A DNA stretch of 64,000 nt from contig NZ_CANMDU010000008.1 in the NCBI RefSeq assembly GCF_947496775.1, forward strand, positions 124,001 through 188,000. Direction: 5' to 3'. This document shows, piece after piece, positions 18,411-30,964 of the stretch. Positions within the stretch are counted from its first letter, which is position 1, and the number at the start of each line of letters is the position of its first letter. The notes beneath the pieces are model-generated. The model was not told where the DNA came from. It did not search any database and was given only the letters and a program-made list of their open reading frames with translations. Position numbers and translations under genes: made by a program. Origin of the DNA: an uncultured Maribacter sp. (GTDB lineage: Bacteria > Bacteroidota > Bacteroidia > Flavobacteriales > Flavobacteriaceae).

Positions 18411-19490
18411 ATGAAAAAAACGTTTAATGTTATAGGATTAATGTCTGGCACTTCTTTAGATGGGTTAGATTTGGTTTACTGTCAAATTTCAGAAATAGAC
18501 GGAGTCTATGGATACACCATTGCAGAAACAAAAAATATAGACTACACACCAGAAATGAAAAGCAATCTTAAAAATGCTATTCATTTACCTGCTCTAGGAT
18601 TGTTAGAATTAAACAATACATACGGAACTTGGCTAGGAGAACAAACTAAACTTTTTATTGAAGAAGAAAATTTAGAAGTTGATTTTATTGCTAGCCATGG
18701 ACATACCACCCACCACCAACCAAAAAAAGGAGTTACCTATCAAGTCGGGAGCGGACAACATATAGCAAATGCATGTAACAAGATTGTAATTAACGATTTT
18801 AGAACTAATGATGTTGCGCTAGGTGGTCAAGGAGCTCCGTTAGTTCCTATTGGAGATATGTTATTTTTTAAAGAATATGATTTTTGCTTAAACCTTGGCG
18901 GTATTAGTAATATTTCTTTCCAGAAAGGAAAAGATAGAATTGCTTATGATATTGGATTAGCAAATATGCTACTAAATTACATCACTCAAAAAATAGATTT
19001 AGCTTACGATAAAGATGGAAATCTTGCACGTTCAGGAAAACTAAACCAAAATTTATTAGACCGTTTAAATGCTTTAGAATTTTACAAACTACACTACCCA
19101 AAATCTATTGGATATGAATGGTTTTTACAAGAAGTTATTCCATTAGTAAACAAAACGGAGGATACTATTCCTAATCTGTTACACACCGCAGTGGTGCATA
19201 TATGCAATCAAATTACACTACAAATAGAGCAAAACATTTCAAAAGAAAACAACAAACTTTTAGTAACTGGAGGTGGTGCCCTAAACTCCTTTTTAATAGA
19301 CACTTTAAAAAAGGAATTACAAAACTCAACAACAGTTGTTATACCTTCTAAAACGGTTATAGAATTTAAAGAAGCTTTAATTTTTGCTTTAATGGGTGTT
19401 TTAAAACATCAAAACAAAACAAATGTACTTAGTACTGTTACTGGAGCTATAAAAGACTCCGTTTCAGGTATTGTTTACCTCCCTCAGTAG
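18411..19490 (+). CDS. anmK: Anhydro-N-acetylmuramic acid kinase
   Basis: A 359-residue ASKHA-fold kinase. It opens and phosphorylates 1,6-anhydroMurNAc with ATP to MurNAc-6P, the substrate of MurQ. Visible motifs are GLMSGTSLDGLD at residues 9-20, ASHGHTTHHQP, NDFRTNDVALGGQGAPLVP, NLGGISNIS and LVTGGGALN near the end. Length matches the family (~360-370). It starts 6 bases after nagZ, closing the GHL10-ampG-nagZ-anmK operon. The following 84 bases hold no gene and contain the tandem repeat at 19536-19575. Confidence 0.96.
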   Translation: MKKTFNVIGLMSGTSLDGLDLVYCQISEIDGVYGYTIAETKNIDYTPEMKSNLKNAIHLPALGLLELNNTYGTWLGEQTKLFIEEENLEVDFIASHGHTTHHQPKKGVTYQVGSGQHIANACNKIVINDFRTNDVALGGQGAPLVPIGDMLFFKEYDFCLNLGGISNISFQKGKDRIAYDIGLANMLLNYITQKIDLAYDKDGNLARSGKLNQNLLDRLNALEFYKLHYPKSIGYEWFLQEVIPLVNKTEDTIPNLLHTAVVHICNQITLQIEQNISKENNKLLVTGGGALNSFLIDTLKKELQNSTTVVIPSKTVIEFKEALIFALMGVLKHQNKTNVLSTVTGAIKDSVSGIVYLPQ

Positions 19491-19535
19491 TCTTACGTTT
19501 TCAAAAAGCCTAATTATCAACGAAATAGAATAAAA

Positions 19536-19575
19536 TATATTTGCTAAATTGATATATATTTGCTAAATTGATATA
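19536..19575 (+). repeat. Tandem direct repeat (period 19) overlapping the promoter and start of the IS1-like HTH gene
   Basis: TTGCTAAATTGATATA occurs at 19541-19556 and again exactly 19 bases later at 19560-19575. Each copy is preceded by TATATTTG (19536-19543 and 19555-19562), a perfect Bacteroidota -7 box. The second copy runs into the ATG at 19575. An inverted copy lies at 19996-20011. A protein bound here would cover both -7 boxes and the start codon. Confidence 0.75.
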
Positions 19576-19994
19576 TGCAACAAAATATATGTCCAAATTG
19601 CGGCTCTGATCGAAATACCAAAAGCGGGATAATAAATAAAAGACAGCGTTACAAATGCAAGAATTGCTCTTATTATTTCACTGTAAACAAAATTGGAAAG
19701 AAGATAGATGATTATTACGTTAATAAAGCATTACAACTATATTTAGAAGGGCTTACCTATAGAGAAATTGAGCGTATACTTAGCATTTCTCATGTAACTG
19801 TAATGAATTGGGTAAAAAAATATAACATAAAACGCCCTTACAATTCCAACTACCACCCAACATACAAAATACTAACTGCAAAAGAACTAGGCAATTACTT
19901 TAGTGACGCATCTAATTTAAAAGGTGCAGGAGCTATTGTTACAGAGCTTGGAGATAAATTTATGCTAATAAAATGGGAGCGTTTTAAAGATTAA
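19575..19994 (+). CDS. Orphan IS1 InsA-like zinc-ribbon / helix-turn-helix protein
   Basis: A 139-residue protein. Residues 6-34 form a zinc ribbon, CPNC then CKNC, in the typical IS1/InsA layout (KSGIINKRQRYKCKNC). Residues ~50-90 form an HTH of the kind found in IS1 InsA (LTYREIERILSISHVTVMNWVKKY). There is no DDE catalytic domain and no partner ORF follows. The last ~40 residues are unlike InsA. It looks like a transposase-derived DNA-binding protein kept as a regulator, placed just before the porin-permease operon. Copies of a 16-bp motif flank the gene. Function as regulator is inference; a decayed IS is the alternative. Confidence 0.8.
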   Translation: MQQNICPNCGSDRNTKSGIINKRQRYKCKNCSYYFTVNKIGKKIDDYYVNKALQLYLEGLTYREIERILSISHVTVMNWVKKYNIKRPYNSNYHPTYKILTAKELGNYFSDASNLKGAGAIVTELGDKFMLIKWERFKD

Positions 19995-19995
19995 C

Positions 19996-20011
19996 TATAT
20001 CAATTTAACAA
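19996..20011 (-). repeat. Inverted copy of the 16-bp motif, 2 bases after the HTH gene
   Basis: The minus strand reads TTGTTAAATTGATATA, 15 of 16 identical to the two direct copies before the gene. It begins 2 bases after the HTH stop and lies about 95 bases upstream of the porin ATG. It could be an operator for the porin-permease operon or a remnant terminal inverted repeat. Confidence 0.7.
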
Positions 20012-20028
20012 TTAAGTATATTAATTTT

Positions 20029-20038
20029 TTGTTAACAA
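20029..20038. promoter_or_regulatory. Short palindrome in the porin leader
   Basis: TTGTTAACAA is a perfect 10-bp palindrome about 65 bases upstream of the porin ATG. One more half-site, TTAACAA, is at 20005-20011 inside the inverted 16-bp motif. No good TAnnTTTG box is seen in this 108-base gap. AT-rich palindromes of this length can arise by chance. Confidence 0.25.
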
Positions 20039-20102
20039 TATCTTTTACGGAGTTTAGCACTGCACACAAAACCAGTATTAATCAACCTAAACACCTAAAT
20101 TT

Positions 20103-21323
20103 ATGAAACAAAAACTATTACTAATTGTATTCTTTCTTGCATCATTTTCTATGATTAATGCTCAAGAAGATGTTGAAACCGGTTATGGTAAAGGCTACAG
20201 GTTAAATTTTGATGACGACGGCACAAAATACCTCCGAATTATTGCTTGGGGCCAATTTTGGGGTCAGTACAACGAAAATGTTCCAGATGAAACTCAAAAA
20301 TTCTCAACTAGCATTAGAAGAGCACGTGTATTAATGTGGACAAAGTTTAGCGATAAATTCTCGTTAGTCACTCATTTTGGTCTAAATAGTTTAAATGGCA
20401 ATAACCAAAGTCCATTAGGTAGTCAAGGAGAGAATGCAGATGCTTCTCAATTGTTTTTTAATGATTTTTGGGGCGAATGGAAAATTGCCGACAATTTCTA
20501 TGCAGGCGCTGGACTACATTACTGGAATGGTATTTCTAGACTTAACAATCAAAGTACCCTTAATCTTTTAACATTAGATAACAACCGTTCCTCATGGGCA
20601 ACTATTGGCCTCTCTGATCAATTTGCACGCCACATTGGTATTTACTCAAAAGGTAAAATAGGCAAATTACAATATCGTGTAGCTATAAACCAAGCAGGTA
20701 AAAATTCGCTAGGCACTTTTGATGGTACTGCAACTGCTTATAAAGGTGTTGATATACTTGGTACCGCTGATGCAGGTAAAGTATATCAAGGTTATTTTGA
20801 TTACAACTTTATGGATGAAGAGTCTAACGCATTACCGTACAAAGTAGGTACTTATATGGGAGCTAAAAAGGTATTTAATATTGGAGCAGGTTTCTTTAGC
20901 CATCCTAACGGCGCTGTAAAAGCAGATGGCACAGGAGACAATGTAAATATTTTCGCTGCTGATGTATTTTATGATGCTCCTGTAGGAGCTAATGGCTCTG
21001 CTATCACTGCATATGCAACCTATCAAAGTAATGATTACGGTGAAGATTTTGTTCTTGGACCATATGCAACAGGCAACATGCTTTATGCTCACTTTGGTTA
21101 TCTATTGCCAGGTGAAAAAACAAAAACTAGATTCCAACCGTATGTTGCCGCATCATCACGCGCAGTTGATGCCATAGATGATAATGCAACTCAATTTAAA
21201 TTAGGTGCTAACCTTTTCTTTACAGGGCACCATTCTAAATTAAGTTTAGATTACACCAACAGTAAAGTAGGTGATGGTGATGCTGCAGGTGTTTTAACCC
21301 TGCAAGCAATGATTTTCCTATAA
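20103..21323 (+). CDS. Outer-membrane porin-like beta-barrel protein
   Basis: A 406-residue exported protein, signal peptide residues 1-20 ending INAQ. The mature part alternates polar and hydrophobic residues with many aromatic ends of strands, and has IRRARVLMWTKFSDKFSLVTHFG near residues 68-90, the Arg-rich start often seen in phosphate-selective or other 16-18-strand porins of Bacteroidota. It ends in an aromatic-Leu strand (LQAMIFL). It lies 27 bases before the DUF4212-symporter pair, so it likely provides outer-membrane passage for the same small organic acid. The solute is inferred from neighbours. Confidence 0.75.
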   Translation: MKQKLLLIVFFLASFSMINAQEDVETGYGKGYRLNFDDDGTKYLRIIAWGQFWGQYNENVPDETQKFSTSIRRARVLMWTKFSDKFSLVTHFGLNSLNGNNQSPLGSQGENADASQLFFNDFWGEWKIADNFYAGAGLHYWNGISRLNNQSTLNLLTLDNNRSSWATIGLSDQFARHIGIYSKGKIGKLQYRVAINQAGKNSLGTFDGTATAYKGVDILGTADAGKVYQGYFDYNFMDEESNALPYKVGTYMGAKKVFNIGAGFFSHPNGAVKADGTGDNVNIFAADVFYDAPVGANGSAITAYATYQSNDYGEDFVLGPYATGNMLYAHFGYLLPGEKTKTRFQPYVAASSRAVDAIDDNATQFKLGANLFFTGHHSKLSLDYTNSKVGDGDAAGVLTLQAMIFL

Positions 21324-21350: not shown

Positions 21351-21614
21351 ATGAGTGAAGATAAACAAGAAAAAGCAACTGCCTATTGGAAAGAAAACCT
21401 TAGGTATTTAATAATCCTTTTAACCATATGGTTCTCTGTTTCTTTTGGAGCCGGAATAATTTTCAAAGATACCCTTAACGAATTTAGATTAGGCGGATTT
21501 AAGTTAGGATTTTGGTTTGCGCAACAAGGGTCCATTTATGTCTTTGTAATTCTAATATTCGTATACGTACGATTAATGAATAAACTAGACAAAAAATATG
21601 GTTACGATGAGTAA
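21351..21614 (+). CDS. DUF4212 small subunit of a sodium:solute symporter
   Basis: An 87-residue protein with two membrane segments (about 19-40 and 60-80). YWKENLRYL at residues 12-20, the FGAGIIF segment and the closing charged NKLDKKYG match DUF4212, a family found directly before a long sodium:solute symporter, as here (34 bases). It is thought to be an accessory subunit of that permease in the inner membrane. Confidence 0.9.
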   Translation: MSEDKQEKATAYWKENLRYLIILLTIWFSVSFGAGIIFKDTLNEFRLGGFKLGFWFAQQGSIYVFVILIFVYVRLMNKLDKKYGYDE

Positions 21615-21648: not shown

Positions 21649-23424
21649 ATGAGTGTTCAAACATGGACTTGGATTTTAGTCGGGCTAACTTTTGCCCTAT
21701 ATTTTGGAATAGCTATATGGGCAAGAGCTGGTTCCACAAAAGAATTTTATGTTGCAGGCGGTGGTGTTTCTCCATTAGCAAACGGAATGGCAACAGCAGC
21801 AGATTGGATGAGTGCCGCATCCTTTATTTCAATGGCAGGTATTATTTCCTTTTCAGGATATGATGGTTCCGTATATCTTATGGGATGGACTGGCGGTTAT
21901 GTATTACTAGCACTATTACTCGCCCCATATCTACGTAAGTTTGGAAAATTTACAGTACCTGATTTTATTGGGGACAGATATTACTCTAACACAGCAAGAA
22001 CAGTAGCTATATTTTGCGCATTAATCGTATCTTTTACTTACGTTGCAGGACAAATGAGAGGTGTAGGAATTGTATTTTCTCAATTCTTACAGGTTGACAT
22101 TACTTTAGGAGTAGTCATTGGTATGGCTGTAGTTCTTGTATTTGCCTTTTTAGGAGGTATGAAAGGAATTACATACACACAAGTAGCACAATATTGTGTA
22201 CTTATTTTTGCTTTCATGGTTCCCGCATTTTTTATATCAATGCAAATGACAGGAAACCCAATACCACAATTAGGAATGGGCGGTAAAGTAGAAGGTGGCA
22301 CATTTTTATTAGACAAATTAGACACCTTACACACCCAATTAGGCTTTAACGAATACACAAGCGGAAAAAAATCTACCTGGGATGTTTTTGCAATAACATT
22401 AGCACTTATGGCTGGTACTGCAGGATTACCTCACGTAATTGTACGTTTCTTTACAGTTCCTAAAGTGAAAGATGCGCGTAAATCTGCAGGATATGCACTC
22501 TTCTTAATTGCTATTCTTTATACAACTGCACCAGCTATTGCAGTATTCTCTAGAACAAATTTAATAGAAACAGTAAGTAATAAAGAATATACAGAAATTC
22601 CTCAATGGTTTAAAAACTGGGAAGACACAGGTTTAATCGCATGGTCAGACAAAAATAATGATGGCAAAATACAATATGTAGCAGGAAGTGCTCTTTCTAG
22701 CAAAAAACCAGTTTTCACAAATGAAAGAGGCACTAATGGAGAACGATTAATTTCTAACGCTAATGATTCTTCAAATGAATTATATGTAGACCGTGATATT
22801 ATGGTATTAGCGAATCCAGAAATTGCTAATTTACCAAATTGGGTAATTGCTTTAGTAGCAGCTGGTGGTTTAGCCGCTGCACTTTCTACAGCAGCAGGTT
22901 TATTACTTGTTATATCCACTTCAATTTCTCACGATTTAATTAAAAAACAATTAAAACCAGACATTTCTGAAAAAGGAGAATTAATGGCAGCACGTATAGC
23001 AATATTAGTAGCTATTATCATTGCAGGTATTTTTGGAATATATCCTCCAGGATTTGTCGCCGCCGTCGTCGCCTTAGCATTCGGTTTAGCCGCTGCATCA
23101 TTCTTTCCTGCAATTATTCTTGGAATCTTTGATAAACGAATGAACAAAGAAGGTGCTATCGCAGGAATGGTTGTTGGTATCACAATAATGTTATTTTACA
23201 TGATACGATACAAAACAGGCCTTATAGGAACTTTTGACCCTAGACCAGCAAGTGAATGGTGGTTTGGAACATCTCCTGAAGGTTTTGGAACAATTGCAAT
23301 GTTAATAAATGTTGTTGTTTCTGTTGTAGTGTCCAGAATGACAGCTGCTCCACCACAAAACGTTCAAGATATGGTAGAGAGTATTAGAATACCTAGTGGA
23401 GCTGGTGAAGCTTCACAACATTAA
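21649..23424 (+). CDS. Sodium:solute symporter, ActP/acetate-permease type
   Basis: A 591-residue SSS-family permease with about 13 membrane segments. It has EFYVAGGGVSPLANGMATAADWMSAASF near the N-terminus, FLGGMKGITYTQVAQY and GTAGLPHVIVRFFTVP, all shared with ActP-type monocarboxylate transporters. A soluble loop of about 80 residues (~305-385) contains DKNNDGKIQ, an EF-hand-like loop, followed by PNWVIALVAAGGLAAALSTAAGLLL. The gene follows the porin and DUF4212 genes; acs and a prpE-like gene lie downstream. Inference: uptake of acetate or propionate. It ends before a strong terminator. Confidence 0.88.
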   Translation: MSVQTWTWILVGLTFALYFGIAIWARAGSTKEFYVAGGGVSPLANGMATAADWMSAASFISMAGIISFSGYDGSVYLMGWTGGYVLLALLLAPYLRKFGKFTVPDFIGDRYYSNTARTVAIFCALIVSFTYVAGQMRGVGIVFSQFLQVDITLGVVIGMAVVLVFAFLGGMKGITYTQVAQYCVLIFAFMVPAFFISMQMTGNPIPQLGMGGKVEGGTFLLDKLDTLHTQLGFNEYTSGKKSTWDVFAITLALMAGTAGLPHVIVRFFTVPKVKDARKSAGYALFLIAILYTTAPAIAVFSRTNLIETVSNKEYTEIPQWFKNWEDTGLIAWSDKNNDGKIQYVAGSALSSKKPVFTNERGTNGERLISNANDSSNELYVDRDIMVLANPEIANLPNWVIALVAAGGLAAALSTAAGLLLVISTSISHDLIKKQLKPDISEKGELMAARIAILVAIIIAGIFGIYPPGFVAAVVALAFGLAAASFFPAIILGIFDKRMNKEGAIAGMVVGITIMLFYMIRYKTGLIGTFDPRPASEWWFGTSPEGFGTIAMLINVVVSVVVSRMTAAPPQNVQDMVESIRIPSGAGEASQH

Positions 23425-23575: not shown

Positions 23576-23770
23576 ATGAAAAAGAGACATATTCAAAAAT
23601 TAGTAGTGCTTTCATTAGGATTATTTTTCATCCTTAATATTCCTTTTCTCCTAATATTTAATCTTAATGATGCCATTTTAGGAATACCAATAATATATTT
23701 TGCTATTTTTTCTATTTGGGCTCTTTCGATTATCATTTCCTATAGTGTACTAAAAAAGCACTATGAATAA
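23576..23770 (+). CDS. Small two-helix membrane protein before the transporter-kinase
   Basis: A 64-residue protein with two hydrophobic segments (about 9-30 and 37-57) and a basic start. It overlaps the following kinase gene by 8 bases, so the two are made together. Small membrane proteins commonly precede SSS-type genes and may assist assembly. I do not recognise a named family with certainty. Confidence 0.7.
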   Translation: MKKRHIQKLVVLSLGLFFILNIPFLLIFNLNDAILGIPIIYFAIFSIWALSIIISYSVLKKHYE

Positions 23771-26453
23771 TTACTATTTGCTAACTATAATAGTTGCCTA
23801 TTTATTAGTTCTATTTTTCATAGCCTACAAAGCTGAGAAAAATTCTAAAAGTAAATGGGTTAACAACCCCTATGTTTACACTCTTTCTCTAGCTGTTTAT
23901 TGTTCCGCTTGGACGTATTATGGTAGTGTTGGTATTGCTGCAAATTCTGGTGTAAATTTTTTACCTATTTACTTAGGTCCTGTTATAGCTGCTCCTTTAT
24001 GGATAGTATTATTGCGGAAAATTATGCGCATATCCAAACAACATAAAATTTCTACTATTGCAGATTTTATTTCTTTGCGATATGGAAACAACAGGTTTCT
24101 TGGTGCTCTTATTACTGTAATTTGTTTAATAGGTACTGTCCCGTACATTTCTTTACAACTTAAAGCAGTTTCCGAAACTTTTGAAATTATGTCTTTTGGG
24201 AATGGACATATTGCCAGTGGTATTTTAGATGATTCCACTTTTTATATTGCTGTTTTACTAGCAATTTTCGCTACTTTTTTTGGAACACAAAGTACAGATG
24301 CATCAGAACATCATAGAGGAATTATAGCTTCAGTAGCTTTTGAATCTGTTATAAAACTAATTTTCTTCTTAATAGTAGGTGCATATATCACTTTTTATTT
24401 ATTTGATGGTACTTCGGATATTTATTATCAAATGTCCAAGACAGATAACTTTAAAAAACTAATAACCTTTGGAAATCTAGAAGAAGGGTTTGATTGGTTT
24501 TTTGTCATAATTCTATCTTTTATGATGATATTTCTTTTACCAAGAATGTTTCAAGTTTCCGTATTAGAAAACAGTAGAGATAAACATTTAAAAAAAGCTA
24601 TCTGGCTATTCCCATTATATTTATTACTATTTAACTTATTTGTAGTTTATATTGCATGGGGAGGAAAATTATCGCTTGGAAATACCGTAAATGCAGAGTA
24701 TTTTTCTCTACTTCTACCGCTGGCAAATGGCAATACTTTACTAGCACTATTAGTTTTTTTAGGTGGTTTTTCTGCAGTAATTTCAATGGTGGTTATTTCA
24801 ACCTTAGCATTATCTACAATGGTTAGTAATAACTTAATTATTCCATATGGTTTTTTAGAAAAATTCATAGAAAATCATCCAGAAAAAAACGCTACTTATA
24901 TTAAAAACATAAGAAGAATATCAATTTTCACTATTATAATTTTAGCGTATATTTTTTATATAAATTTTTCAATAGAACTTTCTTTGTATTCTATTGGCTT
25001 AATCTCATTTGTAATTATTGCGCAATTAGCCCCCTCTTTCTTCTTAGGTCTTTTTTGGAACCGAGGTTCATCAAAAGGAGTTATCATTGGCATTATAGTC
25101 GGCATAATAGTTACTGGTTATACTTTAATACTTCCATTTACTATTGAAGCACTTACGGGCTACACATCTTTCACAACTGAAGGACCTTTTGAAATTGTAT
25201 TACTTAAACCCTACAATTTATTCGGAATAGACTTATTAAGTCCACCATCACATGCATTCTTCTGGAGCATTCTAGCTAACACATTATCATATCTTACATT
25301 TTCATTAACTTCTAAAGGAAACTATAGAGAAAGAAACTATGCAGAAATGTTTGTAGATAGTAGTAATTACAATACACTACAAGACAGTGCTTTAATTTGG
25401 AAAGGAGAAGCTTATGTTGCAGACATTAAAAATGTATTAGTAAAATTCCTAGGAGAAAGAAGAACAAAAAGGGCATTAAATTTATTTTTCAAGAAATACG
25501 ATTTACCTGCAGACACCCAAATGGCTGATGCTCGTTTAATAAATTTTTCAGAAAAACTATTAACAGGAAGTATTGGTGGAGCATCTGCTAAAATACTAAT
25601 CGCTGGCGTTGTCAAAGAAGAAGAAATAAGCTTAGTTGAAGTTTTAAAAATCTTAGAAGAATCTAAAGAAACTATAAATAGAAATAAAATTCTTAGAGAA
25701 AAATCTAACGAACTAACAGAAATGACTTCTCAACTTAAAGAAGTAAATGATGAGTTAATTTTTAAAGACAAACAAAAAGATGAATTTTTAGATACGGTTG
25801 CACATGAACTAAAAACACCGATTACAGGAATACGAGCAGCAACAGAACTTTTAATGGATGAAGATGGAGATATGCCTGGGGAAATAAAAGAACAATTTTT
25901 AAAAAATATTCTTCAGGATTCTGACCGCTTAGCTCGTTTAATTAATAATATTCTTGAATTTGAAAAATTATCTACAGATAGGGCTTATATAAATTTACAG
26001 ACTCATAACATACAAAAAACACTAAAAAGAGCCATTGGAAACATGCAGCACATAGCTGCAAAAAAAGAAGTGGAATTAATAAATAAAAATCAATTTCATT
26101 TTGAATTGATTTATGATGAAGATAAAATTCTTCAAGTTTTAACCAACTTAATTGGTAATGCTATTAAATTTTGTGAGCCAAAAAAAGGAAAAATAATTGT
26201 CGATTACAAAATGGGGAATCAGGCTATCGAATTTTACGTTAAAGACAACGGAAAAGGAATTCCTGAAGAGGATATTGAATATATTTTTGATAAATTCTAC
26301 CAATCTAAAAACCAAAATACTATAAAACCCATTGGAAGTGGACTTGGATTAGCAATTAGTAAACAAATAATTGAAAAACACAAAGGAAAAATTTGGGTAG
26401 AAAAAGGAACTAAAGTTGGAACAATTTTTGGTTTTAAACTTCCTTTTTATTAA
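23763..26453 (+). CDS. CrbS-like sensor: sodium:solute symporter domain fused to STAC and histidine kinase
   Basis: An 896-residue fusion. Residues ~1-520 are an SSS transporter domain with about 13 membrane segments (YTLSLAVYCSAWTYYGSVG, RISTIADFISLRYGNN). Residues ~585-645 fit a STAC linker (ADARLINFSEKLLTGSIGG). Residues 650-675 form a short coiled coil. The HisKA box TVAHELKTPITG has phospho-acceptor His681, and the HATPase has NAIKFCE, DNGKGIPEED and GSGLGLAISKQI. No receiver is attached. CrbS proteins in other bacteria turn on acs in response to acetate; position in an acetate cluster supports the same input here. Whether the transporter part moves solute is unknown. Confidence 0.9.
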   Translation: MNNYYLLTIIVAYLLVLFFIAYKAEKNSKSKWVNNPYVYTLSLAVYCSAWTYYGSVGIAANSGVNFLPIYLGPVIAAPLWIVLLRKIMRISKQHKISTIADFISLRYGNNRFLGALITVICLIGTVPYISLQLKAVSETFEIMSFGNGHIASGILDDSTFYIAVLLAIFATFFGTQSTDASEHHRGIIASVAFESVIKLIFFLIVGAYITFYLFDGTSDIYYQMSKTDNFKKLITFGNLEEGFDWFFVIILSFMMIFLLPRMFQVSVLENSRDKHLKKAIWLFPLYLLLFNLFVVYIAWGGKLSLGNTVNAEYFSLLLPLANGNTLLALLVFLGGFSAVISMVVISTLALSTMVSNNLIIPYGFLEKFIENHPEKNATYIKNIRRISIFTIIILAYIFYINFSIELSLYSIGLISFVIIAQLAPSFFLGLFWNRGSSKGVIIGIIVGIIVTGYTLILPFTIEALTGYTSFTTEGPFEIVLLKPYNLFGIDLLSPPSHAFFWSILANTLSYLTFSLTSKGNYRERNYAEMFVDSSNYNTLQDSALIWKGEAYVADIKNVLVKFLGERRTKRALNLFFKKYDLPADTQMADARLINFSEKLLTGSIGGASAKILIAGVVKEEEISLVEVLKILEESKETINRNKILREKSNELTEMTSQLKEVNDELIFKDKQKDEFLDTVAHELKTPITGIRAATELLMDEDGDMPGEIKEQFLKNILQDSDRLARLINNILEFEKLSTDRAYINLQTHNIQKTLKRAIGNMQHIAAKKEVELINKNQFHFELIYDEDKILQVLTNLIGNAIKFCEPKKGKIIVDYKMGNQAIEFYVKDNGKGIPEEDIEYIFDKFYQSKNQNTIKPIGSGLGLAISKQIIEKHKGKIWVEKGTKVGTIFGFKLPFY

Positions 26454-26884: not shown

Positions 26885-27109
26885 ATGAAATTACGTTTAA
26901 ACCCGTTGGTATCTGATATTATTATTAGTGCCTACATTCTTATATCGTTATATTTTCGTTTTAAATTTGAAAACGAAACGCCAATTAGTCCTATGAACTC
27001 TATAGTTATAGGGATATGTTTTGTAACCATACTATGGGTTCTCATTAAACTTAAAGTGTTAAACCCCAACTGGTTTGGTCTATTTAATTCAAAAAAGACC
27101 AAGTCATGA
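26885..27109 (+). CDS. Small two-helix membrane protein
   Basis: A 74-residue protein with two hydrophobic segments (about 9-25 and 37-58 from this ATG) and a basic C-terminus. A GTG two codons upstream is an alternative start. Its stop overlaps the ATG of the acyl-CoA synthetase by 4 bases (ATGA), so they are translationally coupled. I do not recognise a family. It may be a membrane anchor or regulator for the kinase-synthetase operon. Confidence 0.65.
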   Translation: MKLRLNPLVSDIIISAYILISLYFRFKFENETPISPMNSIVIGICFVTILWVLIKLKVLNPNWFGLFNSKKTKS

Positions 27110-28998
27110 ATTATAGCGAATTCCACAATAAAAGCATTAGTAATCCGTCTGAATTCTGGAAAGAACAATCTCAAAATTTAGACTGGCAAACTAAACCAAA
27201 AACCATTCTTTCAAAGGATAAAGAAGGCTATACACAATGGTTTACAGACGGTAAACTTAACCTTAGTTATTTATGTATTGACAAACACATAAATGATGGT
27301 TTTGGAGAACAAAATGCCATTATATATGACTCCCCTGTAACTAACACAAAAGAGCATATTACTTATAACAAATTACATACAGAAGTTTCCAAATTAGCAG
27401 GAGGTTTACAAGCTTTAGGACTAAAAAAAGGCGACACTATTATAATTTATATGCCAATGATTCCACAAGCTATTTATGCAATGCTTGCTTGTGTTAGGAT
27501 TGGCGTTATACATTCTGTTGTCTTTGGTGGTTTTGCTCCGCATGAGTTAGCAATACGTATTGATGATTGTAAACCAAAAGCCATAATTACCGCTTCTAGC
27601 GGTATAGAAGTTACTAGGATTATACCATACAAACCATTTGTAGATACTGCAATAACGCAATCTAAATACAAGCCAGAACATGTAATTGTATTTGACAGAA
27701 ATTTAAATGCAGAAATCCCTCACATGCCCTATGACATAGATTATGAAGCATTAATAAACAAATCTACTTCTGCAGAAGCTATACCTCTAGAATCTACACA
27801 CCCCTCATACATTTTATATACTTCTGGAACTACTGGAACCCCAAAAGGGATTATTAGAGACACTGGCGGATATGCAACTGCTTTAAAATTTTCTATGCAA
27901 TATGTTTATGGTGTTGACCAAGGTGATGTTTATTGGGCTGCAAGTGATGTTGGCTGGGTTGTAGGACATAGCTATATTGTTTATGCTCCTTTGTTACACA
28001 GAAACACTACTATTCTATTTGAAGGAAAACCAATAAAAACACCAGATGCATCAACTTTTTGGCGCGTTATAAGTGAACACCAAGTAAAGGTTATGTTTAC
28101 AGCACCAACAGCAATTAGGGCTATAAAAAAAGAAGACCCAGAAGGCCTTCTAATAAAAAAATACGACTTAAGTTGTTTAAAATATCAATTTTTGGCTGGT
28201 GAACGTTGTGATGTAGCAACTTTAGAATGGATAGAAAAACACTTGCAAATTCCCGTTATAGATCATTGGTGGCAAACAGAATCTGGCTGGCCTATGTTAG
28301 CGAATATGGTTGGAGTTGAATTACAAAAAGTAAAACCAGGATCAGCCTCTTTACCTGTTTGTGGTTATGATATTCAAATTTTAAATGCAGATGGCAATAA
28401 AGTTAAAGCTAACGAAGAAGGCTTTGTAACGGTAAAATTACCTTTACCTCCTGGAACATTAACTAACCTTTGGGGTAACCCACAAAGATTTAAATCTGGG
28501 TATTTAGAACGTTTTCCAGGATATTATTTTTCAGGTGATGGAGGCTATAAAGATGAAGATGGTTATGTGTTTATTACAGGCAGAGTCGATGATATCATTA
28601 ATGTTGCAGGCCATAGACTTTCTACAGCAGAAATGGAAGAGATTGTTGCCTCGCATTCCTCTGTTGCAGAATGTGCTGTTTTTGGAATTCATTGTGAATT
28701 AAAAGGACAAAAACCTTTAGGACTAATAGTATTAAAATCTGGAGAAACTTTAAATGAGAATCAGATACAAACAGAAATCATTAAAGAAGTTCGTCAAGAG
28801 ATAGGCCCTGTTGCTTCTTTTAAAGATGTATTTGTTGTAAAAAGATTACCCAAAACACGATCCGGAAAAATATTACGAAAATTACTCCGTAACATAGCAG
28901 ATACAAAAGATTACAAAATACCATCTACCATAGATGACATCTTAATAATTGATGAAATTAAAGCAGTTTATAATAAAAATAAAATAGCACCAAGCTAA
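27106..28998 (+). CDS. prpE: Acyl-CoA synthetase, propionate-CoA ligase (PrpE/ACSS3) type
   Basis: A 630-residue adenylate-forming enzyme. It has the P-loop TSGTTGTPKG (from residue 239), WAASDVGWVVGHSYIVYAPLL, FTAPTAIRAIKKEDP, HWWQTESGWP, the hinge GRVDDIINVAGHRLS and catalytic Lys in TRSGKILR. The DPxG and GERCD stretches group it with propionyl-CoA synthetases rather than Acs. The reaction is short acid + ATP + CoA to acyl-CoA + AMP + PPi. It is coupled to the small membrane gene upstream and followed by acs, in the operon led by the CrbS-like sensor. Exact chain length preference is inferred. Confidence 0.85.
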   Translation: MNYSEFHNKSISNPSEFWKEQSQNLDWQTKPKTILSKDKEGYTQWFTDGKLNLSYLCIDKHINDGFGEQNAIIYDSPVTNTKEHITYNKLHTEVSKLAGGLQALGLKKGDTIIIYMPMIPQAIYAMLACVRIGVIHSVVFGGFAPHELAIRIDDCKPKAIITASSGIEVTRIIPYKPFVDTAITQSKYKPEHVIVFDRNLNAEIPHMPYDIDYEALINKSTSAEAIPLESTHPSYILYTSGTTGTPKGIIRDTGGYATALKFSMQYVYGVDQGDVYWAASDVGWVVGHSYIVYAPLLHRNTTILFEGKPIKTPDASTFWRVISEHQVKVMFTAPTAIRAIKKEDPEGLLIKKYDLSCLKYQFLAGERCDVATLEWIEKHLQIPVIDHWWQTESGWPMLANMVGVELQKVKPGSASLPVCGYDIQILNADGNKVKANEEGFVTVKLPLPPGTLTNLWGNPQRFKSGYLERFPGYYFSGDGGYKDEDGYVFITGRVDDIINVAGHRLSTAEMEEIVASHSSVAECAVFGIHCELKGQKPLGLIVLKSGETLNENQIQTEIIKEVRQEIGPVASFKDVFVVKRLPKTRSGKILRKLLRNIADTKDYKIPSTIDDILIIDEIKAVYNKNKIAPS

Positions 28999-29056
28999 CA
29001 ACTAACTCAACACCTAAATATTAAACTTAAATACAATACAACATAAAAATAATAGC

Positions 29057-30964
29057 ATGAGTAATTATCATATAAAACATTTAGAAGAATACTATCAAGT
29101 CTACAGAAAATCTGTTCGAAATCCAGAAGCTTTTTGGGAAGAAATTGCAGAAGAGCATTTTGTTTGGAGAAAAAAGTGGGACAGGGTTTTAGACTGGGAT
29201 TTTACCAAACCTGAAGTAAAATGGTTTGAAGGCGCACAACTAAATATCACGGAAAACTGTATTGATAGGCATTTAACTACTCGTGGAAATAAAACAGCTA
29301 TTCTATTTGAACCTAATAATCCTAAAGAAGAAGCATTACATATAACTTACTCTCAGTTACATGAACGCGTTTCTAAAATGGCAAATGTTCTAAAAGAAAA
29401 AGGCGTAAAAAAAGGAGATAGAGTATGCATATACCTACCCATGATTCCTGAATTGGCAGTTTCTGTTTTAGCATGCGCAAGAATAGGTGCTATACATTCT
29501 GTTGTTTTTGCAGGATTTTCGTCTAATGCTTTATCCACTAGAATTAACGATTCTGATTGCAAACTAGTCATTACTTCTGATGGTTCCTATAGAGGCTCTA
29601 AAACTATAGACCTAAAAGGCATTGTAGATAAAGGACTTGAAGACTGCCCCGGAGTAAAAAATGTTTTAGTTGTAAAACGTATTAATTCTGAGATAGATAT
29701 GATTGAAGAAAGAGACGAATGGTTACAACCTCTATTAGATGATGCTTATGGCGATTGCGTACCAGAAATAATGAATGCAGAAGACCCTTTATTTATACTG
29801 TATACATCTGGATCCACCGGAAAGCCAAAAGGCATGGTACATTCTACTGCCGGTTATATGGTATATACCGCTTATACTTTTAAAAATATTTTTCAATATA
29901 AAGAAGAAGATATTTATTGGTGTACAGCAGATATTGGGTGGATTACTGGTCACTCCTATATTGTCTATGGACCATTAGCTAATGGTGCTACTACAGTAAT
30001 GTTTGAAGGCGTTCCATCTTTCCCTGATTATGGAAGGTTTTGGGAAGTGGTAGAAAAACACAAAATAAATCAGTTTTATACTGCTCCAACTGCAATTAGA
30101 GCTCTTGCTAAAGAAAATTTAGAATATGTAGAGAAGTACGATTTAAGCTCTCTAAAAGTATTAGGCTCTGTTGGTGAACCTATTAACGAAGAAGCATGGC
30201 ATTGGTACAATAATAATGTTGGAAAAAAACACAGTCCCATAGTAGATACTTGGTGGCAAACAGAGACAGGTGGAATAATGATTTCCCCTATTCCCTATGT
30301 AACACCTACCACCCCAACCTTTGCCACACTACCTTTTATTGGTATTCAACCAGCATTAATGGATGAAAACGGTGATGAAATTAAAGGAAATCAAGTAGAT
30401 GGAAGATTATGTATTAAATTCCCTTGGCCATCTATAGCCAGAACTATTTGGGGTAACCATGAACGATATAGAGACACTTATTTCTCTGCATACGAGAACA
30501 AATATTTTACAGGAGATGGCGCTCATAGAGATGCCGTAGGGTACTACAGAATAACTGGTAGAGTAGATGATGTTATTATCGTTTCTGGACATAACCTTGG
30601 AACCGCTCCAATAGAGGATTCCATTAACGAGCACCCAGCTATAGCAGAATCTGCTATTGTAGGATTCCCGCATGATGTAAAAGGCAATGCTTTATACGGC
30701 TATGTTATTCTTAAAGAAACAGGAGAAGGAAGAGACAGAGAAAATTTAAAACGAGAAATAAACCTTCAAATAACAGAACATATCGGACCTATTGCAAAAC
30801 TAGATAAGATTCAATTTGTAACTGGATTACCCAAGACTAGAAGCGGAAAAATTATGCGTAGAATACTACGCAAAATTGCACACAAAGACACTTCAAACCT
30901 TGGAGACACAAGTACCTTATTAAACCCAGAAGTGGTTCAAGAAATTATGGATAACGCTTTATAA
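29057..30964 (+). CDS. acs: Acetate-CoA ligase
   Basis: A 635-residue Acs. Motifs are TSGSTGKPKG (residues 250-259), WCTADIGWITGHSYIVYGPL, FYTAPTAIRAL, DTWWQTETGG with the Trp that limits the acyl pocket to acetate, the hinge GRVDDVIIVSGHNLGT, and LPKTRSGKIMRR with the catalytic, acetylatable Lys. It activates acetate to acetyl-CoA in the cytoplasm. Length matches E. coli Acs (652) closely. It sits 58 bases after the prpE-like gene and ends at a bidirectional terminator, closing the acetate region. Confidence 0.96.
   Translation: MSNYHIKHLEEYYQVYRKSVRNPEAFWEEIAEEHFVWRKKWDRVLDWDFTKPEVKWFEGAQLNITENCIDRHLTTRGNKTAILFEPNNPKEEALHITYSQLHERVSKMANVLKEKGVKKGDRVCIYLPMIPELAVSVLACARIGAIHSVVFAGFSSNALSTRINDSDCKLVITSDGSYRGSKTIDLKGIVDKGLEDCPGVKNVLVVKRINSEIDMIEERDEWLQPLLDDAYGDCVPEIMNAEDPLFILYTSGSTGKPKGMVHSTAGYMVYTAYTFKNIFQYKEEDIYWCTADIGWITGHSYIVYGPLANGATTVMFEGVPSFPDYGRFWEVVEKHKINQFYTAPTAIRALAKENLEYVEKYDLSSLKVLGSVGEPINEEAWHWYNNNVGKKHSPIVDTWWQTETGGIMISPIPYVTPTTPTFATLPFIGIQPALMDENGDEIKGNQVDGRLCIKFPWPSIARTIWGNHERYRDTYFSAYENKYFTGDGAHRDAVGYYRITGRVDDVIIVSGHNLGTAPIEDSINEHPAIAESAIVGFPHDVKGNALYGYVILKETGEGRDRENLKREINLQITEHIGPIAKLDKIQFVTGLPKTRSGKIMRRILRKIAHKDTSNLGDTSTLLNPEVVQEIMDNAL

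Follow-up and report, generated by a model that had tools for sequence, protein, structure and literature searches.

Organization of the Locus

In the window, the 64,000-nucleotide stretch of DNA that was analyzed, a gene for a 139-residue protein is followed on the same strand by genes for a porin-like protein, a sodium/solute symporter and its small subunit, a sensor histidine kinase, a response regulator and two acyl/acetyl-CoA synthetases (Table 1). The link of this operon to acetate is read from the neighboring acetyl-CoA synthetase and VC_2705-type symporter genes. Among the 896 residues of the kinase, 41–447 match SSF, 671–737 HisKA and 785–895 HATPase_c; with the last ending at residue 895, the kinase has no C-terminal receiver, and in the comparison with Pfam families none matched the stretch between the SLC5 and kinase domains, where the CrbS/CrbR system has its STAC domain. 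The synthetase paralogues stand in tandem at 27106–30964, and only the second adjoins the transporter in six same-genus species without the HTH module.

Table 1. Features of the locus (positions in the window).
Feature	Positions	Strand	Remarks
TATATTTG, further candidate −7 element	19536–19543	+	Perfect in the window, without conservation in orthologues
Operator A half-site 1, TTGCTAAATTGATATA	19541–19556	+	Tandem kept in 55/57 orthologue loci
TATATTTG, candidate −7 element inside operator A	19555–19562	+	TAnnTWTG kept in orthologues
Operator A half-site 2, 19-bp period with half-site 1	19560–19575	+	Tandem kept in 55/57 orthologue loci
139-aa regulator (predicted), related to N-terminal half of IS1 transposase	19575–19994	+
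Operator B, inverted half-site	19996–20011	−	15/16 to TTGCTAAATTGATATA, PWM score 12.8
Weak degenerate second inverted half-site, 21 bp further	20017–20032	−	PWM −2.0
Porin-like outer-membrane protein	20103–21323	+	NF040900 2.8e-16, below its cut-off; no Pfam match
DUF4212 / sodium-substrate symporter small subunit	21351–21614	+	TIGR03647
VC_2705-family sodium/solute symporter	21649–23424	+	TIGR03648
SLC5-type sensor histidine kinase	23763–26453	+	SSF + HisKA + HATPase_c; no receiver
Receiver-only response regulator, 121 aa	26470–26835	+	Without DNA-binding domain
Acyl/acetyl-CoA synthetase paralogue 1	27106–28998	+
Acyl/acetyl-CoA synthetase paralogue 2	29057–30964	+

The 16-mer TTGCTAAATTGATATA occurs in two exact plus-strand copies, the last base of the second being the A of the ATG (19575), and once more, inverted and with 15 of 16 bases matching, after the stop codon. 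The preliminary description of this DNA had reported these three copies and had placed the tandem pair over two perfect −7 boxes and the start codon. Both observations hold: the copies lie where it had put them, and the two TATATTTG boxes of the window are perfect matches to TAnnTTTG. A search of positions 19400–20200 against Rfam for a known RNA element around the gene yielded no match at E ≤ 1.

The 139-Residue Protein and Its Orthologues

The protein carries an IS1/IS1595-type zinc ribbon (residues 6–36), a helix-turn-helix (HTH, about 51–86) and a strongly conserved C-terminal beta-alpha-beta-beta part (93–136). It matched NF050000 with 32.7 bits, above the cut-off of 28, and the IS1 transposase model NF033558 with 73.9 bits, below the whole-protein cut-off of 100; its residues 6–111 align to positions 1–109 of the 199 in the latter. 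All 43 aligned sequences, namely that of the window and 42 from the 80 loci kept, match both models at E ≤ 0.001. The N-terminus is of the zinc-binding and HTH type known from IS1, and downstream neither a catalytic DDE part nor a frameshift partner was found: the model match stops at 109/199 and the porin gene comes next. The structure modeled by AlphaFold2 shows the zinc ribbon, a helical HTH and the C-terminal beta-alpha-beta-beta piece with moderate confidence (mean pLDDT 77, 67–71 for the other four models, pTM 0.54). A fold search of this model against the PDB gave no match at E ≤ 0.001, the top, insignificant Foldseek matches being Lrp/AsnC-type regulators (best E 0.01, TM 0.26), and the best E-value in a profile search of PDB sequences was 0.03, which is not significant. 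From these matches the protein is predicted to consist of an IS1/InsA-type zinc ribbon and HTH with a short extra C-terminal domain.

In a first search the gene was matched in 13 of 60 genomes, giving 12 orthologues including that of the own genome. Among 397 genomes of the family, 63 had a match at E ≤ 0.001 and 50 were counted as having an orthologue, i.e., a gene of full or nearly full length, 45–100% identical and without an internal stop; the other 13, with weak partial matches, were set aside. Each gene-bearing family genome has a single orthologue, and so has the genome of the window. Of the 28 matches that the search of 326 genomes of the phylum gave at E ≤ 1e-15, seven came from further families of the class that lie outside the order and three from the rest of the phylum; internal stops occur in the two weakest (G592 and G603). 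The relatives named among the 80 kept loci include Maribacter, Winogradskyella, Kordia, Aquimarina, Lacinutrix and Polaribacter.

Eleven loci from the first search and 46 from the family search made up the set of 57 orthologue loci, from which the window is excluded. Their usual gene order is hth, porin, DUF4212, SSF symporter, histidine kinase and receiver, and sequence matches were found for the porin in 48, for DUF4212 and SSF in 54, for the kinase in 52 and for the receiver in 53 of them. Six of the nine loci without a porin match hold another ORF of 391–398 aa in its place. Contig ends truncate two loci (L052 and L106), and the kinases of the respective genomes (G006 and G418) lie on another contig. 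Acyl/acetyl-CoA synthetase genes were seen in 16 of the 57 loci, most of the other stretches stopping just past the receiver. Upstream of hth, the orthologue loci mostly have a gene other than the anmK found in the window. Much the same gene order is seen in other families of the class. The gene has a fixed place in a conserved operon and was wrongly called an orphan in the preliminary description, which also overlooked the link to the histidine kinase and its receiver-only response regulator.

Operator A

Alignment of the regions upstream of the orthologues revealed a 33-bp element, roughly GCTAA(A/T)TT(A/G)NTATATTTATGC(T/A)AA(A/T)(A/T)(A/T)(A/G)NTATA, in 55 of the 57 loci. The pattern GCTAAWWTNNTATATWTWTGCWAAWWWNNTATA was matched without mismatch at 47 loci and with one at eight, and operator A was not found upstream of the remaining two orthologues, the divergent G309 and G094, the genes of which are 44–45% identical. 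One base separates element and start codon in 45 of the 55 loci, and the gap is −1, 0, 4, 5, 6, 16 or 28 in the others (in L061 and L092 it was counted to the matched start rather than to an ATG); with such a range, operator A is neither an artefact of the start codon nor kept for its sake. Upstream of the element the conservation drops, apart from two T's and a brief A/T-rich stretch immediately ahead of it, and no conserved classical −33 element was seen there in the orthologue alignment. Among the 55 orthologues, the second −7 box is kept as TAnnTWTG, whereas the first is not.

At up to two mismatches, the composite operator was found in 48 of the 397 family genomes, all of them gene-bearing and each with exactly one site, while not one of the 347 gene-less family genomes has it; the reversed pattern, used as a control, occurred in one of the 397. 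Since the window and the 57 loci together cover every one of the 48 family genomes with the operator and also served to derive the pattern, finding it in those genomes is partly a matter of construction; the telling parts of the survey are the 347 blank genomes and the single copy per genome. A check of 14 genomes of the genus and order gave the operator in 8/8 with the gene, these eight belonging to the 57 loci, while the six same-genus species that lack the gene also lack the operator.

Outside the design set, 16 distant loci were taken from 23 further matching genomes of the phylum search. The operator lies upstream of the gene in ten of them at up to three mismatches, and an eleventh (L271) has it between gene and porin; no further match was found in the 421,236 positions scanned on both strands of the distant loci. 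The tandem of L271 (genome G601) is located at +468 from the gene start, in plus orientation, ahead of the porin and not upstream of the gene. As to the distant loci outside this count, a looser tandem is visible in L270 and one half-site in L274, the contig of L275 ends 37 bases ahead of the matched start of the gene, and the genes of L276 and L277 are 31–37% identical and contain internal stops.

The preliminary description had proposed searching the genome for the 16-mer and comparing the locus in relatives. In the whole 3.96-Mb genome, the three sites of the window are the only places that match TTGCTAAATTGATATA with at most one mismatch. Eight more sites have exactly two mismatches, and these resemble background, since the reversed control gives six at up to two. 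Within the window, eight matches at up to three mismatches were counted against 3.8 expected, a number reached by 4 of 100 shuffles, so a lone degenerate match says little. Given one composite site per genome and no other place for the 16-mer in the own genome at up to one mismatch, no wider regulon is proposed. The motif is kept around homologues of the gene; of the findings named beforehand as counterevidence, neither a lack of such conservation nor numerous copies typical of a MITE were seen. The work supplies a precise and searchable candidate operator for acetate control in Flavobacteriaceae.

Operator B and the Porin Leader

Operator B begins at the second base past the stop of the 139-codon gene and is located 92–107 bp ahead of the porin ATG, the weak second site being 71–86 bp ahead. 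Site B was scored with a position matrix built from the half-sites of other loci, with 100 mononucleotide shuffles per test. A minus-strand site after the hth stop exceeded the 95th percentile of the shuffles in 38 of 55 loci, compared to 4 of 55 for the plus strand, and in 31 of the 38 positive loci it starts at +1 to +3 past the stop. As a natural control, a matrix of the same kind gave scores above 5 after 29 of 55 hth stops but after only 2 of 278 stops of other ORFs. Many loci have a weaker second inverted site 20–21 bp beyond operator B, which scores −2.0 in the window and up to 14.8 in some orthologues. Operator B is degenerate and failed the shuffle test in 17 of the 55 loci, mostly the more divergent ones; in the leader alignment, several of these 17 resemble the same site made one base shorter. 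By this comparison, the inverted site after the stop, though degenerate, is conserved.

In the porin leader (20044–20100) a box GAGTTTAG..TGCACACAAAACC is seen in many orthologues, and its arms look complementary to the bases just before the ATG. Across 48 porin leaders the cognate arms pair with a score of 15.7, while 5000 permutations, in which relatedness was ignored, gave a mean of 13.4 and a maximum of 14.8, which lends such pairing some support; yet only 29% of the 48 cognate pairs exceeded the 95th percentile of shuffled arms. A hairpin in this leader was rejected, as the fold of the window's leader is no better than that of shuffles (z +0.95) and RNAalifold of 48 or 32 leaders gave no structure.

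Linkage of the Gene to the Kinase and Receiver

Kinase orthologues (E ≤ 1e-90) are present in 49 of the 397 family genomes, the gene in 50 and both in 48 (Fisher's test, p about 3e-58, phylogeny ignored). At this threshold two genomes (G094 and G309) have the gene without the kinase and one (G299) has the kinase without the gene. The receiver measures 119–125 aa in 48 of 50 complete copies and is therefore too short to include the usual DNA-binding output domain; the other two are of 138 and 150 aa when counted from the most upstream ATG, and three copies that are cut off stand outside the 50. Among the 16 distant loci, the kinase was found in 12 and the receiver in 11 within the stretches fetched.

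At 13 loci with gene and kinase, an MFS transporter, confirmed by Pfam for L278 and recognized at the others by similar N-terminal sequence, occupies the place where DUF4212/SSF would be. Conversely, none of 20 DUF4212/SSF loci from gene-less genomes has an adjacent kinase or receiver orthologue. These 20 come from 19 genomes, six of them of the same genus, and were drawn from 24 DUF4212 loci in 23 gene-less genomes; two (L156 and L157) show only weak matches of 27–39% and one (L167) a porin match of 30%. The gene thus appears, from this double dissociation, to go with the kinase and not with the transporter.

The six gene-less species of the same genus have DUF4212-SSF-Acs directly behind anmK, i.e., hth and porin are missing on one side of the transporter and kinase and receiver on the other. 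A symporter tree of 74 rows, 54 with the gene including the window and 20 without, requires at least six changes of the gene label, four of them forced by well-supported branches, and places four gene-less same-genus species as sisters of the window's symporter (100/99) within an otherwise gene-bearing clade. The simplest reading of the same-genus case would be the loss of hth-porin and of kinase-receiver with retention of the transporter between them.

Four genomes have the gene without a detectable kinase (G052, G094, G309 and G578). In G052 (L059) gene, operator and receiver are present and no kinase was found at E ≤ 1e-40; the HTH gene directly adjoins the receiver gene, followed by two acetyl-CoA synthetase genes, with neither kinase nor transporter in between. 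Two small genomes of 1.6–1.7 Mb (L107 and L108) have a 44–45% identical HTH gene directly ahead of DUF4212-SSF-Acs, and operator A, porin, kinase and receiver were not found at these loci. In G299 (L284, 6043–11229), a kinase of 39–42% identity and a receiver-only regulator, without the IS1-type HTH gene, have as neighbors an ArsR-type HTH gene, a porin and an operon for a TRAP-type transporter, the last recognized by eye from sequence.

Proposed Function and Alternative Explanations

We consider that the gene probably encodes a dedicated autorepressor of the IS1/InsA type that also regulates the acetate operon and would provide the DNA-binding output of a CrbS-like system. Comparison of the genomes shows the motif and its conservation, one composite site per genome, the conservation of the operon and the co-occurrence with the kinase. 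Of the earlier proposal that the protein binds the motif, represses itself and controls the acetate-uptake operon, the regulatory role in general has good support from this comparison, in which operator A is kept at 55 of 57 loci along with the operon; the binding and autorepression, like the action at operator B, the contact with the receiver and acetate as the signal, are what we infer from it.

The 139-residue protein would most likely bind operator A, over its own −7 region and start codon, and thus repress itself, and would likewise bind the inverted operator B, ahead of the porin, to control the operon of porin, transporter, kinase, receiver and acetyl-CoA synthetase. At operator B it could either activate or repress the porin gene; we lean towards activation, the sign being a guess. 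The signal would most likely pass from the co-inherited SLC5-type kinase to the receiver-only response regulator and from there to the 139-residue protein, which would then supply the DNA-binding part that this CrbS/CrbR-like acetate system otherwise lacks. With no output domain in the receiver, the HTH protein suggests itself for this role.

According to excerpts of PMC6847099, the −7 element of Flavobacterium johnsoniae is TAnnTTTG, with 4–5 nt to the start site in probable promoters, and 87% of the predicted leaders in this species are longer than 10 nt. The conserved TAnnTWTG would place the transcript start some 7–8 nt ahead of the ATG, and the promoter would then lie under both half-sites, as expected of the position of a repressor. 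A leader of 7–8 nt is unusually short and, in view of the F. johnsoniae leaders, counts against the proposal if the conserved box is used; from the upstream, non-conserved box a leader of about 26 nt is predicted.

The rival to be weighed most carefully, though we find it rather unlikely, is a classical one-component autoregulator of the acetate operon, in which the C-terminal domain senses a metabolite and kinase and receiver are merely passengers in the operon with other targets. The operators and the single-copy synteny require no receiver, the C-terminal domain is strongly conserved, the insignificant Foldseek matches of Lrp/AsnC type point the same way, and three genomes (G094, G309 and G578) have the gene without a detectable kinase. 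Against this, the double dissociation ties the gene to the kinase and not to the transporter, 48 of the 50 complete receivers cannot accommodate an output domain, and at L059 the gene stands directly beside the receiver in the absence of both kinase and transporter. Very improbable, in our estimate, is that the tandem motif is only a strong Bacteroidota promoter and translation-start region kept for the sigma factor and ribosome. The TAnnTTTG boxes inside the motif and the adjoining start codon would suit such a region, but the conserved bases reach well past the −7 box over 33 bp in two near-equal halves, the pattern is missing from every gene-less family genome, a related site occurs on the opposite strand after the stop, and the tandem of L271 sits after the gene; this explanation is largely rejected on these grounds.

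The preliminary description had also allowed for the outer copies to be terminal repeats of a decayed or domesticated element, an IS or MITE around a transposase fragment. The match of residues 6–111 to the N-terminal half of the IS1 transposase model and the mutual inversion of the outer copies agree with this, but we regard it as extremely improbable. Copies 1 and 2 form a direct repeat with a 19-bp spacing that is kept across the 55 loci, the genome holds no further copy at up to one mismatch, the catalytic part is absent with the porin operon coming next, and much the same gene order extends to other families of the class. Moreover, what is missing in the same-genus species is hth with porin and kinase with receiver, segments that do not end at the repeats, and not the bracketed 471 bp. 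The autoregulator half of the preliminary description has good support from the comparison, while its mobile-element half is not supported.

Within the preferred reading of an autorepressor serving a CrbS-like system, a more specific model is tentative, with somewhat below an even chance in our judgment. It holds that the system is a split response regulator of transposase origin, in which the phosphorylated receiver would dock on the IS1-type HTH protein, and that protein would give SLC5-kinase acetate sensors throughout Bacteroidia their DNA-binding output, the partner being exchangeable, as the ArsR-type HTH of G299 may illustrate. If true, it would clearly exemplify, in bacteria, the domestication of a transposase for two-component signaling, and it would offer a testable route for pairing uncharacterized single-domain receivers with stand-alone HTH proteins. 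What is new here is the conserved operator system and its tie to a kinase with a receiver-only partner. We found no description of such a regulator in the open-access PMC literature, which does not imply its absence from print.

Comparison with Known Systems

InsA of IS1 is described in excerpts of PMC12428005 as a zinc-finger and HTH repressor that binds the ends of IS1, competes there and represses the promoter of the element. The 139-residue protein shares with it the N-terminal zinc ribbon and HTH and, by our proposal, binding over its own promoter; as InsA represses with the same domain pair, the ancestral activity would fit the proposed role. Unlike InsA, it has neither a DDE part nor any sign of mobility, carries the extra C-terminal beta-alpha-beta-beta part, and is encoded by a single-copy gene fixed in an acetate operon with a tandem direct operator. 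The terminal inverted repeats and multiple genomic copies of IS1 were not seen, the own genome containing three places at up to one mismatch and one orthologue, nor does this genome hold the many dispersed copies of a MITE.

CrbS/CrbR (MxtR/ErdR) is a two-component system for acetate (excerpts of PMC5715377, PMC9100948 and PMC7918813), with CrbR as an activator of LuxR type (PMC9100948, PMC5715377). As in that system, a histidine kinase with an SLC5 domain adjoins genes for an acetate-type transporter and acetyl-CoA synthetase. In contrast, the window's kinase has no C-terminal receiver, its response regulator is receiver-only and not of LuxR type, and the candidate operator is a 19-bp direct repeat with an inverted site, whereas theirs is the ACTU imperfect inverted repeat. 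As far as the excerpted descriptions go, the acetate/pyruvate SLC5-kinase systems CrbS/R and RpuS/R end in LuxR-type response regulators with a DNA-binding domain of their own; here a DNA-binding domain captured from a transposase, with operators of its own, appears to replace that output.

A single-domain response regulator that acts through another transcription factor is described for VemR with HrpG (excerpts of PMC9923393). The arrangement proposed here is alike in that a receiver without an output domain would work via a separate DNA-binding protein. HrpG, the partner of VemR, is itself a response regulator, whereas the proposed partner in the present system is an IS1-type HTH protein, the gene of which comes first in the operon.
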